A stretch of 47,884 bases of DNA from Actinomycetota bacterium (GTDB lineage: Bacteria; Actinomycetota; Rubrobacteria; Rubrobacterales; Rubrobacteraceae). Below the pieces are notes generated by a model. That model had not been told where the DNA came from, made no database searches, and was given only the letters and a program-made list of their open reading frames with translations. This document shows, one piece after another, positions 714-8,142 of this stretch (its first letter is position 1; every line of letters begins with the position of its first letter). A program made the translations under genes and the position numbers. The stretch spans positions 1-47,884 of the forward strand of contig SIRX01000191.1 of assembly GCA_004563715.1 (NCBI GenBank), in the 5' to 3' direction.

Positions 714-740
714 ATGATAAGCCCGTAGTGGGACATGTCC
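713..740 (+). promoter_or_regulatory. Putative -10 and palindrome before the phasin-like gene
   Basis: TATGAT (713-718) matches the -10 consensus at five of six positions. A perfect 10-bp palindrome GGACATGTCC (731-740) lies near the expected transcription start. It contains the ACAT/ATGT halves favoured by PadR proteins but has no spacer, unlike the palindromes at 182 and 8245. No convincing -35 is seen, since that area is taken up by the preceding terminator. Confidence 0.3.
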
Positions 741-758
741 GGGGAAAGGAGACCCAGC

Positions 759-1094
759 ATGGACGATCAGCAAACAAAGCGGGTAAACGAGGCAGCCCAG
801 AAGTTCGCCGAAGCGGTCCGGGAGTCCCTCGAGACCGTGTCGAACCGCTCGGTGGAGGCGCAGGAGCGTTCCCGGGCGCTGACGCAGAACTTCTTCGAGT
901 CCGTGATCAGCGAGCTGGAGGCCCAGGCCCAGAGCAGCCAGCAGATGTCCGAGGAGTTGATGGAGCAGTCCCGGAGGCAACAGGAGGCGTTCCAGCAGCT
1001 CTCCGAAGAGTCCATGAACGCTTACAAGGAGTTCCTGGGCTCTATGTCCTCCTACTACCAGATGAACATGGAGCGGGCGCAGAGAAACCGTTAG
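759..1094 (+). CDS. Small coiled-coil protein, probable phasin-like granule protein
   Basis: This 111-residue, highly polar protein is rich in Gln, Glu and Ser and is predicted mostly helical, with heptad-like spacing (for example EAQAQSSQQMSEELMEQSRR). It has no signal peptide or membrane segment. ATG at 759 is chosen because GGAAAGGAG lies 8-9 nt upstream; the in-frame ATG at 735 lacks this. It sits between the PhaQ-like repressor and a thiolase, each transcript separated by its own terminator, as phaP neighbours phaQ in Bacillus. Small amphipathic helical proteins in such loci are usually phasins coating PHA granules. No phasin signature is recognised with certainty, so the function comes from context. 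Confidence 0.6.
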   Translation: MDDQQTKRVNEAAQKFAEAVRESLETVSNRSVEAQERSRALTQNFFESVISELEAQAQSSQQMSEELMEQSRRQQEAFQQLSEESMNAYKEFLGSMSSYYQMNMERAQRNR

Positions 1095-1221: not shown

Positions 1222-2448
1222 ATGAGCTTCGGTAATGGAAACGGTAACGGCGGCGAGGTAATAATCTCCACGCCGCTGAGGACGGCGATAGGAACGTTCG
1301 GCGGGATGCTCAAGGACACACCGGCTGTCGAACTGGGCGCCACCGTCGGCAAAGAGGTCCTCTCCCGGGCCGGTGTCGAGGGGGATCAGGTCGACCAGGC
1401 GATAATCGGGAACATCCTGCAGGCCGGCCAGGGCATGAACCCCGGACGCCAGGTCGGGATGAAGAGCGGGCTGCCGGTCGACTCCCCCGGGATGACGCTC
1501 AACCGGATGTGCGCGTCGGGGTTGCAGGCCATCGTGTCAGCGGCCCAGGAAGTCGCGCTCGGGGACGCGGAGGTGATCCTGGCCGGCGGCATCGAGAATA
1601 TGGACCAGGCGCCGTTCCTGCTCCCCAAGGGGCGCTACGGCTACCGGATGGGGATGCCGGACGGCAAGATCTACGACCACATGGTCTACGACGGCCTGTG
1701 GGACGTCTTCAACGACTACCACATGGGCACCACCGCCGAGAACGTGGCCGAGAAGTACGGCGTGAGCCGGGAAGACGCCGACGCCTACGCCGTGCGGAGC
1801 CACCAGCGGGCGGCCAAGGCCATAGAGGAGGGGTACTTCGACGACCAGATCGTGCCCGTCGAGATCAAGCAGAAGAAGGAGACCGTCGAGTTCACCAAGG
1901 ACGAGCACGTCCGGCCGAACGCCTCGATGGAGGGCTTCGCCAAGCTCAAGCCGGTCTTCAAGCGGGACGAGAGCGCTACCACGACCGCCGGTAACTCCAG
2001 CGGCATCAACGACGGCGCCGGGCTTATGCTCGTCTCCAACAAGAGCAAGGCCGAGGAGCTCGGGCTCCCGATAGACGGCATCCTGGTCTCGGCGGCGGTC
2101 TCCGGCGTGGACCCGTCGGTGATGGGGGCCGGCATGATCCCCTCCTCCCAGATGGCCCTCAAGCGGGCCGGTCTCTCCGTCGACGACATCGACGTGGTGG
2201 AGGCCAACGAGGCGTTCTCCACCATAGCGGTGACCGTCGAGCGGGAGCTGGGCGTGCCGGAGGAGAAGATGAACCCGCTGGGCGGCGCGGTGGCCCTCGG
2301 CCACCCGATAGGCGCGACCGGCGCCATCCTGACCGTGAAGATCCTGCACGAGCTGAAGCGCACCGGCGGCCGGTACGGCCTGGTCACCCTCTGCGTCGGC
2401 GGCGGCATGGGCATCGCGGCCATCTTCGAGAACCCGAACGCCTCTTAG
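1222..2448 (+). CDS. phaA: Acetyl-CoA C-acetyltransferase (thiolase)
   Basis: This 408-residue thiolase condenses two acyl-CoA (usually acetyl-CoA to acetoacetyl-CoA) or cleaves 3-ketoacyl-CoA. The acylated cysteine is in NRMCASGLQA (Cys97). The histidine is in ALGHPIGATGA and the second cysteine in LCVGGGMGIA, so all three catalytic motifs are intact and length is normal for the family. The N-terminus has a short Gly/Asn repeat (GNGNGNGG) before the fold begins at EVIISTPLRT. The RBS GGAAGGAGG precedes the ATG. Its place after a PhaQ-like repressor and phasin-like gene suggests it feeds PHA synthesis (PhaA), but a beta-oxidation or degradative role cannot be excluded from sequence. No phaB is nearby. 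Confidence 0.9.
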   Translation: MSFGNGNGNGGEVIISTPLRTAIGTFGGMLKDTPAVELGATVGKEVLSRAGVEGDQVDQAIIGNILQAGQGMNPGRQVGMKSGLPVDSPGMTLNRMCASGLQAIVSAAQEVALGDAEVILAGGIENMDQAPFLLPKGRYGYRMGMPDGKIYDHMVYDGLWDVFNDYHMGTTAENVAEKYGVSREDADAYAVRSHQRAAKAIEEGYFDDQIVPVEIKQKKETVEFTKDEHVRPNASMEGFAKLKPVFKRDESATTTAGNSSGINDGAGLMLVSNKSKAEELGLPIDGILVSAAVSGVDPSVMGAGMIPSSQMALKRAGLSVDDIDVVEANEAFSTIAVTVERELGVPEEKMNPLGGAVALGHPIGATGAILTVKILHELKRTGGRYGLVTLCVGGGMGIAAIFENPNAS

Positions 2449-6054: not shown

Positions 6055-7122
6055 TTAGTCCGAGCGGGTGGAGAGCCACTCGTCGAGCTTGGGCCAGAGG
6101 CCCTTTTTGGCGCCGCGGCCGGTCATGAGGCCGACGTGGCCGGCATCCAGGACGAAGAACTCCTTATCCTCGCTGGAGACGAGGTCCATCGTGGCCTCGG
6201 CCTGCGGGAGGGTGCAGATGTGGTCCTTTTTGGCGGCGATGTTCAGCAGCGGCGTGGTGATATTAGAGAGGTCCACGCGCCGGCCGCGCAGCACGATCTC
6301 GCCCTTTACCAGCTTGTCGTCGCGGTAGAAGTCGTTGATCCACTGCTTGAACGCCTCGCCGGGGAACGGGGGACCGTCGTTGACCCACTTGTTCATGGCG
6401 AGCCAGGTCTCCATCGGCTTCTCGTCGAAGATGCGCTCCCACATGCTGACGTAGGTGCCAACGTAGTTGGTGACGGGCTTGAGCATCCGGTTGCCGGTGT
6501 CCACCATCTCGCCGGGGATGTTCCCGAAGGCGTCGGATAGTACCTCGACGTCGAGGTACTTGTCGTCCGTGAAGAGCTTGTAGAGCCCGATCTCCTCCCT
6601 CGGGAAGGACACGGGGGTGGTCATCAGGACCAGGTTCTTGAGGTGCTCCGGGAAGAGGGAGGCGTACATGGCGCTCATGGTGCCGCCCATGCAGTAGCCG
6701 AAGAGGGTGATCTCCTCGGCCCCGGAGTGCTTGAGCACCTTGCGCACGGCCCGCGGGAGGTAGTCGAGGACGTAGTCCTCGAAGGTGAGGTCCTTGTCCT
6801 CGGGCCCGGGGATGCCCCAGTCGAGCATGTACACGTCGTAGCCCTGTTCGGTGAGGTACTCGATCAGGCTGTTGCCCGGGATGAGGTCGAGGACGTAGGG
6901 CCGGTTGATGAGGGCGTAGATGATGAGGATCGGGGTCCGGTACTTCTTCTCTTTGCCCGGCTGGTAGTGGTAGAGCCTGGCCTTGTTCTTGGTCCAGACG
7001 GTCTCCTTGGGCGTCTGGCCCGTCTCGGCCTGGGCGCCCTCGGTGACGATCCTCAAACCCTGCTGGTACTTGTCCAGGAAGCTCTCGACTTCCCTCGGCA
7101 TTACGCTGCTCTGCTCGGTCAT
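6055..7122 (-). CDS. phaC: Class III poly(3-hydroxyalkanoate) synthase subunit PhaC
   Basis: This 355-residue catalytic subunit polymerises (R)-3-hydroxyacyl-CoA into PHA at the granule surface. The lipase-box variant FGYCMGGT carries the nucleophile Cys144. Asp300 (AAKKDHI) and His329 (DAGHVGLM) complete the triad, almost the same numbering as Allochromatium vinosum PhaC (149/302/331). The short length with no 200-residue N-terminal extension also marks class III. The ATG at 7122 abuts the phaE stop with no gap, and AAAGGGGAG inside the phaE end is its RBS, so the two subunits are translationally coupled. It is transcribed with phaE from the 8.2 kb promoter. Confidence 0.97.
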   Translation of the reverse strand: MTEQSSVMPREVESFLDKYQQGLRIVTEGAQAETGQTPKETVWTKNKARLYHYQPGKEKKYRTPILIIYALINRPYVLDLIPGNSLIEYLTEQGYDVYMLDWGIPGPEDKDLTFEDYVLDYLPRAVRKVLKHSGAEEITLFGYCMGGTMSAMYASLFPEHLKNLVLMTTPVSFPREEIGLYKLFTDDKYLDVEVLSDAFGNIPGEMVDTGNRMLKPVTNYVGTYVSMWERIFDEKPMETWLAMNKWVNDGPPFPGEAFKQWINDFYRDDKLVKGEIVLRGRRVDLSNITTPLLNIAAKKDHICTLPQAEATMDLVSSEDKEFFVLDAGHVGLMTGRGAKKGLWPKLDEWLSTRSD

Positions 7123-8142
7123 CTAGCTCTCCCCTTTCTTGCGAACGTCGCCGATCGTGATCAGGCCGTCCGACCCGGTGCCTTCGACTTCGGCGAGGTC
7201 CACCCCGAGCTCCTGCGCCTTGCGTCGGGCCGCGTCGGTGGCCCTCACCTCCCGCGCCGGCTCGCTCTGCTCAGCCGGAGCTTCGGCGCTCTCGGTGCTC
7301 CCGGCGCTGCCGTTGGCCGAGATACCTTCGACGGCGGTGAGCAACTGGTCCAGCTTGCACTCGACCCGGCTGATGCGCTCTTCCAAAGCCTCGATGCGGC
7401 TCGTGCTGGCTTCCATGCCTTGGTCCAGACGCTTTTCGAGGGCCCCGATGTCCTCCGTGGTTGCCGGCTCTTTGTAGCCGTACTCGAACTCCTCGAAGGT
7501 CTCCTCCAGACGGTCCACCTTGTCCTCCAGCGCGACGATGAGGCCCGCCACGCGGGTGATGTCCGAGCGGGCGGGCATCTGGAGGTTGTGCAGGTACTCC
7601 TCGGAGTTGCGGCCGAAGATCTTGTACAGGCTCGCGTAGTTGCGCATGAAGCGGCTAGAGACGTCCAGGAACTCTTCCCGCTCGATAACGTCCTGGACGA
7701 ACTCGGAGACCGGGCCGCTGGTGGCGTTGTACCACTGCACCGCGAGCTCCAGCGGGTCCTTGGGGAAGGTCCGCTGGCTCAGGAGGTTCTGCCGCGCCTC
7801 GTCCATCATCTGCATCCAGCGCGGGGTCATGCTGAGCATCTCGGTGCCGATCCCGGCGGCCTTCTGCCAGCCTTCCAGGGTGGCGTCCACCCACTTGCTC
7901 CAGGCCTCCTGCGGGTCCATGCCGCCCGGCACCGCCGCGGTCCCGGCCTCGGAGGCGCCCGCCAACTGGCTCCGCATCTGCTCGGCGCTCTCGAACCACT
8001 GGCGGTAGAGCCCGTGAGGGTCCACGTAGCTCTCCTGGGTCCCGCGCATGACCTCCGACCACATCTTGGAGCCCGTCTCGTACCACTGGGTCCAGAGCTC
8101 GGTCGGGTCTACTCCCGCGCCTATCCTGCTCTCTTCCGTCAC
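7123..8142 (-). CDS. phaE: PHA synthase subunit PhaE with a C-terminal E3-binding-like domain
   Basis: This 339-residue partner subunit is required for class III PhaC activity. Residues 1-220 are PhaE-like: Trp-rich helices (ELWTQWYETGSKMW, EAWSKWVDATLEGW), then the diagnostic LQMPARSDITRVAG and a coiled coil. A second coiled coil follows at 230-272 and an Ala/Ser/Glu/Pro linker at 273-296. Residues 297-336 (VRATDAARRKAQELGVD, VEGTGSDGLITIGDV) match the peripheral subunit-binding (E3-binding) domain of 2-oxoacid dehydrogenase E2 chains, an unexpected addition. GTG at 8142 has the strong RBS GAGAAGGAGG. The domain may tether another protein to the synthase or granule; its partner is unknown. 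Confidence 0.92.
   Translation of the reverse strand: MTEESRIGAGVDPTELWTQWYETGSKMWSEVMRGTQESYVDPHGLYRQWFESAEQMRSQLAGASEAGTAAVPGGMDPQEAWSKWVDATLEGWQKAAGIGTEMLSMTPRWMQMMDEARQNLLSQRTFPKDPLELAVQWYNATSGPVSEFVQDVIEREEFLDVSSRFMRNYASLYKIFGRNSEEYLHNLQMPARSDITRVAGLIVALEDKVDRLEETFEEFEYGYKEPATTEDIGALEKRLDQGMEASTSRIEALEERISRVECKLDQLLTAVEGISANGSAGSTESAEAPAEQSEPAREVRATDAARRKAQELGVDLAEVEGTGSDGLITIGDVRKKGES

Follow-up and report, generated by a model that had tools for sequence, protein, structure and literature searches.

The PHA-synthase subunit encoded at positions 7123-8142 of the window (the whole stretch of 47,884 nucleotides analysed here, from a member of the Rubrobacteraceae) ends in about 40 residues that match the peripheral subunit-binding domain (PSBD) family, and by profile searches and structure prediction we were able to show that they form a confidently predicted PSBD on a flexible tether. 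Sequence comparison also showed that this domain belongs to a PSBD subfamily of the Rubrobacteraceae that is carried by proteins other than E2. PSBDs are known essentially as docking sites in 2-oxo-acid dehydrogenase complexes. The safest statement is that a lineage-specific docking domain, most likely of E2 origin, is found on a PHA-synthase subunit, on candidate granule proteins and beyond, and its spread through the family is a greater surprise than the single PhaE fusion. A PSBD fixed on the PHA synthase of a whole bacterial family, together with its relatives on ribosomal protein bL20 and on proteins that may coat the granule, would represent a docking domain of metabolism that has left its complex for a new use. 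This gives a concrete, assayable hypothesis on further recruitment to Rubrobacter PHA granules, and such a plug, small and natural, might serve to scaffold enzymes on bioplastic granules.

The phaE-phaC locus

The features of the window that bear on this domain are the following.

735-1094, plus strand: small phasin-like protein (PhaP_Bmeg, E 1.4e-4, under the cut-off)
1222-2448, plus strand: thiolase, candidate for PHA precursor supply (Thiolase_N, E 7e-91)
6055-7122, minus strand: phaC, class III PHA synthase catalytic subunit (TIGR01836)
7123-8142, minus strand: phaE-like gene for the second subunit of the PHA synthase (339 aa), which ends in the PSBD (Pfam and TIGRFAM scans, orthologues)
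7126-7251, minus strand: predicted PSBD (E3_binding), residues 298-339 (Pfam match at residues 301-334, that is 7141-7242; fold and PDB-profile matches)
7252-7311, minus strand: low-complexity Ala/Ser/Glu/Pro linker, residues 278-297 (pLDDT below 50 at 278-296)
7312-8142, minus strand: PhaE/PhaR-like helical core, residues 1-277, including a coiled coil at 229-277 (TIGR02132 match, predicted helices)

The phaE-like open reading frame runs from a GTG start codon at 8142 down to 7123 and is directly abutted downstream by phaC, whose product passed the class III PhaC model TIGR01836 with 404.3 bits (cut-off 365.3). The PhaE-like protein scored below the cut-offs of the PhaE models (PF09712, 9.7 against 25.7; TIGR01834, 17.3 against 154.95) and of the PhaR model TIGR02132 (42.7 against 148.4 bits; E 5.6e-11, residues 129-272). 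The name PhaE is supported by the class III PhaC as neighbour, and judged by position the upstream protein is PhaE-like, with a PhaR-like core region. The same PhaE/PhaR ambiguity was met in a published study of Rubrobacter, in which PHA production was demonstrated and reached up to about half of the dry mass in two species; the passages of that study consulted make no mention of a PSBD on PhaE (PMC8146576). Among the annotated neighbours of the locus no E1 or E3 gene was seen. The phasin candidate of the window carries no PSBD and adjoins the thiolase gene.

Identity and predicted fold of the C-terminal domain

A first-pass annotation of this DNA had placed an E3-binding domain at residues 297-336 of PhaE, behind an Ala/Ser/Pro linker, and this placement proved right within about three residues. 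Indeed, the E3_binding profile PF02817 matched residues 301-334 with 37.1 bits (E 3.7e-9) against a Pfam gathering threshold of 23.7, the motif running from VRATDAARRK, which begins at residue 299, to ITIGDV, which ends at residue 333. A profile built from 20 orthologous PhaE C-termini matched PDB chains of PSBDs at E 4e-16; almost without exception, the other PDB chains among the matches listed were likewise PSBD-bearing proteins. Neither a lipoyl domain nor a 2-oxoacid_dh core domain was present in the Pfam list of the PhaE-like protein.

In the AlphaFold2 model of full-length PhaE, residues 301-339 reached a pLDDT of about 90, with helices at 303-312 and 330-338, and were preceded by the linker, which is disordered at 278-296. 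The last 50 residues modelled alone with an alignment gave a mean pLDDT of 86.7 and were again predicted as an ordered two-helix PSBD. The predicted structure, together with Foldseek and VIA comparison, revealed two short parallel helices joined by a GTGxxG loop, which is the PSBD topology. The best 36 Foldseek matches were all PSBD entries; their E-values stayed above 0.001, which a domain of this size would lead one to expect, and the consistency of the list constitutes the evidence. The credible matches of VIA-align were likewise PSBD structures, among them 2eq7_C, a PSBD crystallised with E3, at 0.8 A over 37 residues. The full-length model had a pTM of 0.28; apart from the C-terminal domain and some stretches of the core its confidence was low, and no fold is claimed here for the core for this reason. 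A chance motif or artefact was ruled out by the Pfam score, the confident predicted fold and the Foldseek list, and also by conservation, since orthologues still keep the domain where overall identity has fallen to about 46-50%. Neither of the two outcomes that the first-pass annotation had named as refuting, a lack of significant E3_binding matches and a disordered prediction unlike the two-helix domain, was obtained.

Distribution of the PhaE domain

Among 60 sampled relatives, a match to the PhaE query was found in 35/35 of the same family, and more than 25 loci were read as full PhaE orthologues with a C-terminal PSBD. In an alignment-based scan of named genomes, relatives were found in Rubrobacter MAGs, in R. 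marinus and in R. taiwanensis (a single-PhaE query recovered none). The linker varies between the orthologues in length and sequence. The nearest outgroup, two PhaE of Ktedonobacterales with 34-36% identity, is without PSBD in both cases, and a survey of homologues as suggested by the first-pass annotation thus finds the fusion conserved across Rubrobacteraceae orthologues and absent from these two. When 198 Actinomycetota genomes were searched with the PhaE profile, the PhaE core was found only within the Rubrobacteraceae. Outside the family the matches fell solely on the domain part of long reading frames; these frames measured at least 414 aa, except for a fragment of 356 aa cut by a contig end, as E2 would give, in a search that a short divergent PSBD carrier could escape.

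A second PhaE-like paralogue was observed in some genomes (G004:C4:2792075-2792995, G014:C220, G011:C543 and G005:C71), in some cases with in-frame stops in the matched stretch. One further phaE locus on a MAG contig (L138:2071-3194) shows an apparent frame shift near the PhaE C-terminus, due to a sequencing error or a pseudogene.

Other carriers of the domain in Rubrobacteraceae

The genome of the window itself encodes a 278-aa protein with three PSBD copies, an adjoining apolipoprotein-like protein of 364 aa with one, and two further carriers with one copy each, of 266 aa and of 137 aa, the latter a coiled-coil protein. Beside phaE-phaC at the locus with the apparent frame shift, a PhaP-like phasin (L138:4191-5087) carries the same C-terminal PSBD; the phasin-like protein of the window shares 42% identity with it over 90 aa. 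Several of the carriers are labelled phasin-like on weak profile scores. Ribosomal protein bL20 bears one or two C-terminal PSBDs in ten Rubrobacteraceae genomes (L086, L088, L091, L099, L101, L104, L107, L110, L113 and L114). Among the full bL20 frames 19/33 are extended, the bL20 of the window's own genome being plain, and presence or absence of the fusion differs between close relatives. On these unrelated non-E2 proteins the usual place of the domain is the extreme C-terminus, and arrays comprise 2-4 PSBDs in a single protein.

The non-E2 PSBDs share 52-67% identity between classes and only 40-46% with the family's E2 PSBDs, and a tree holding all of them together was not rejected (p-AU 0.82), although with 39 columns it is poorly resolved.

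Proteins with E3_binding arrays and apolipoprotein-like proteins with Ala/Glu repeats are encoded together in a conserved cluster (L077:571-2789, L085, L090, L103, L106 and L111), and are possibly granule or lipid-coat proteins. In two of these genomes (L085 and L103) a gene for a ParA-like ATPase lies inside the cluster. A 1171-aa protein at L095:4550-8065 contains four PSBD-like domains, Gln/Ala-rich repeats and, towards its C-terminus, a possible PRC-barrel-like stretch. Small proteins with an N-terminal PSBD-like domain were also observed on IMG/VR contigs (L145:2989-3630, L146:2899-3327 and L147:2956-3327).

Interface residues and candidate partners

Residue numbers in this section follow the published Bacillus stearothermophilus numbering, PDB chain numbers apparently being higher by one, and the E3-contact positions are presumed ones. 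The E2 PSBDs of the family keep Pro132 (33/33), a basic residue at 135 (33/33) and Arg156 (31/33). The PhaE PSBDs, by comparison, have Arg135 in 24/26 and Arg136 in 26/26, with Lys or Arg at 137 in 23/26, so that positions 135-137 of helix 1 hold on average 2.8 basic residues out of 3. The helix-1 proline is absent throughout (0/26), and position 156, mostly Gln, is basic in only 4/26, the Arg156-equivalent thus being lost in 22/26; Arg is retained there in the PhaE of G008 and G019. Judged from these counts, half of the E3-contact pattern survives in PhaE and the remainder is mostly lost. The loss of the Arg156-equivalent would specifically weaken E3 binding. Taken together, the residue counts favour a partner of the PhaE PSBD that has changed, or a relaxed choice of partner, although E3 or E1 would still be compatible with them.

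In bL20 the pattern differs, with Glu at 135 in 16/18 and Arg156 kept in 17/19. We dropped the argument that this Glu disproves E3 binding, because the E3-bound PSBD of 2eq7 also has Glu at position 135 and a single residue is thus not decisive. The mean net charge of the domain is -1.2 in PhaE (-2.6 for its loop), -7.6 in bL20 and +0.2 in the E2s of the family, and since the bL20 domains are so strongly acidic, it is not evident that a single partner would suit all carriers.

Judged by frame length, PhaE is apparently the only non-E2 PSBD carrier in six genomes (G001, G008, G009, G013, G019 and G022), where all other E3_binding matches lie in E2-sized frames of 350-531 aa, some of which were read; the six genomes are spread over three nested groups of the PhaC tree. 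Since the domain is kept where PhaE is the sole carrier, its partner would not be among the other carriers. The candidates that remain are a generic protein such as E3, an E1, PhaC, or PhaE itself, and E3-family proteins were present in the four genomes checked (4/4).

Proposed role and alternative explanations

The domain is probably an E2-derived docking module that has been reused as a plug on PHA-granule proteins. According to this proposal, the PSBD of a 2-oxo-acid dehydrogenase E2 would have become a C-terminal plug on PhaE, which, as assumed from PHA-synthase biology, would sit with PhaC on the granule. The linker would project the domain outward, and at the granule surface the basic helix-1 face of the domain (Arg306, Arg307 and Lys308) might capture a partner protein of acidic character. 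Other candidate coat proteins of the granule (the PhaP-like phasin and the apolipoprotein-like arrays) bear this plug too, as do, away from granules, bL20 and coiled-coil proteins. What PhaE binds is probably a protein of a generic kind that all members of the family possess. E3 or an E1 subunit might be this partner, though we consider it somewhat doubtful, and some other partner of more recent acquisition has at least the same probability, since drift at the E3-contact residues has taken a different course in every protein class. A broader reading, which we hold to be less likely than not, is that a neofunctionalised E2-derived subfamily serves in Rubrobacteraceae as a general intracellular plug on the PHA synthase, on granule-coat candidates and, in some lineages, on bL20 and thus the ribosome, and that it is read by a partner other than E3 or E1, physically linking storage granules to other machinery.

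The PhaE PSBD may instead have kept its classical function and bind dihydrolipoamide dehydrogenase (E3) or an E1 subunit, which would place a 2-oxo-acid dehydrogenase, or just the E3 belonging to it, at the granule. This is consistent with the close structural match of the predicted domain to an E3-bound PSBD, with the conserved Arg pair of helix 1, with the Arg at 156 in two PhaE proteins, and with the generic partner needed in the six PhaE-only genomes. However, it is unlikely in view of the residues that PhaE has lost and the family E2s keep, of the lack of a metabolic logic for the same subfamily on bL20, and of the absence of E1 and E3 genes from the annotated neighbourhood. The first-pass annotation had proposed that the synthase recruits a dehydrogenase or another domain-recognising protein, physically linking acyl-CoA/NADH production to polymer synthesis. 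Its docking part is supported, because the basic residues clustered around helix I, to which a review ties E3/E1 binding (PMC6270654), are retained in PhaE. The specific dehydrogenase-polymer link finds no support, because the same subfamily occurs on many unrelated proteins including bL20 and multi-copy arrays, and because PhaE has lost the Arg156-equivalent and the helix-1 proline.

A stability, solubility or turnover tag without specific partner, spread by domain shuffling, would fit the location at the extreme C-terminus of unrelated proteins and the bL20 fusions that come and go between close relatives, and a comparable case may be the NCBIfam 'sunset domain' variant of L20. The PhaE orthologues, however, share the class-specific invariants R307, R334 and G337 beyond the fold motif, which suggests a selected contact and makes a mere tag improbable. 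Slightly less probable still is homotypic binding within the subfamily, by which PSBDs would tie PhaE to coat proteins and other proteins and so build a scaffold on the granule: arrays of several domains and the sharing of one conserved gene cluster by several carriers would agree with it, but the six PhaE-only genomes leave just PhaE-PhaE contacts, and to our knowledge E2 PSBDs dock other proteins and are not self-associating modules. A nucleic-acid tether, in the manner of the granule-nucleoid tethers PhaM and PhaF or of the Lsr2 C-terminal domain, which has a related fold, might be suggested by bL20 and by the ParA-like ATPase gene in two carrier clusters, but it is very improbable given the net charges of PhaE and bL20 against the family E2s, the Pfam list of PhaE without an Lsr2 family and the credible Foldseek matches, all PSBDs (the absence of Lsr2 from that list being in itself no proof of difference).

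Comparison with known systems

Relative to E2 PSBDs (PF02817; PDB 1EBD, 1W85 and 2EQ7), the PhaE domain shares the fold, the core motif GTGxxG...DV, the flexible linker and the basic helix 1. In contrast to E2, PhaE has neither a lipoyl nor an acyltransferase domain and bears its PSBD at the C-terminus, and the domain itself is without the helix-1 proline, without a hydrophobic residue at 137 and mostly without the Arg156-equivalent. Non-catalytic proteins with an E3-docking-type element are known in E3BP/PDHX (PMC6270654) and in the adaptor MRPS36 (PMC9974300), and PhaE resembles them in this respect; however, E3BP keeps its lipoyl and core domains, MRPS36 replaces a PSBD, and neither is tied to PHA. 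The alpha/beta hydrolase enzyme 202 (PDB 7QJM) is reported to have a PSBD as accessory domain (PMC9772341), a case comparable to PhaE of such a domain outside the canonical E2s; it differs in coming from a PET-hydrolase screen, in being no PHA protein and in showing no family-wide spread. With the PhaE and PhaR of class III and IV synthases the protein shares adjacency to a class III PhaC and a PhaR-like core, below the curated cut-offs, the C-terminal PSBD being additional here.

The literature search found no description of PhaE or PHA with a PSBD, which agrees with the statement of the first-pass annotation that it knew of no described role for the domain in PHA synthases, nor of a bL20-PSBD fusion, and no relevant paper on the 'sunset domain'. 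The bL20 variant of that name (NCBIfam NF051450) likewise has a small shared domain appended to bL20. The bL20 scanned here matches the first 162 of the 219 positions of NF051450 but not its C-terminal end, where PF02817 is matched instead.
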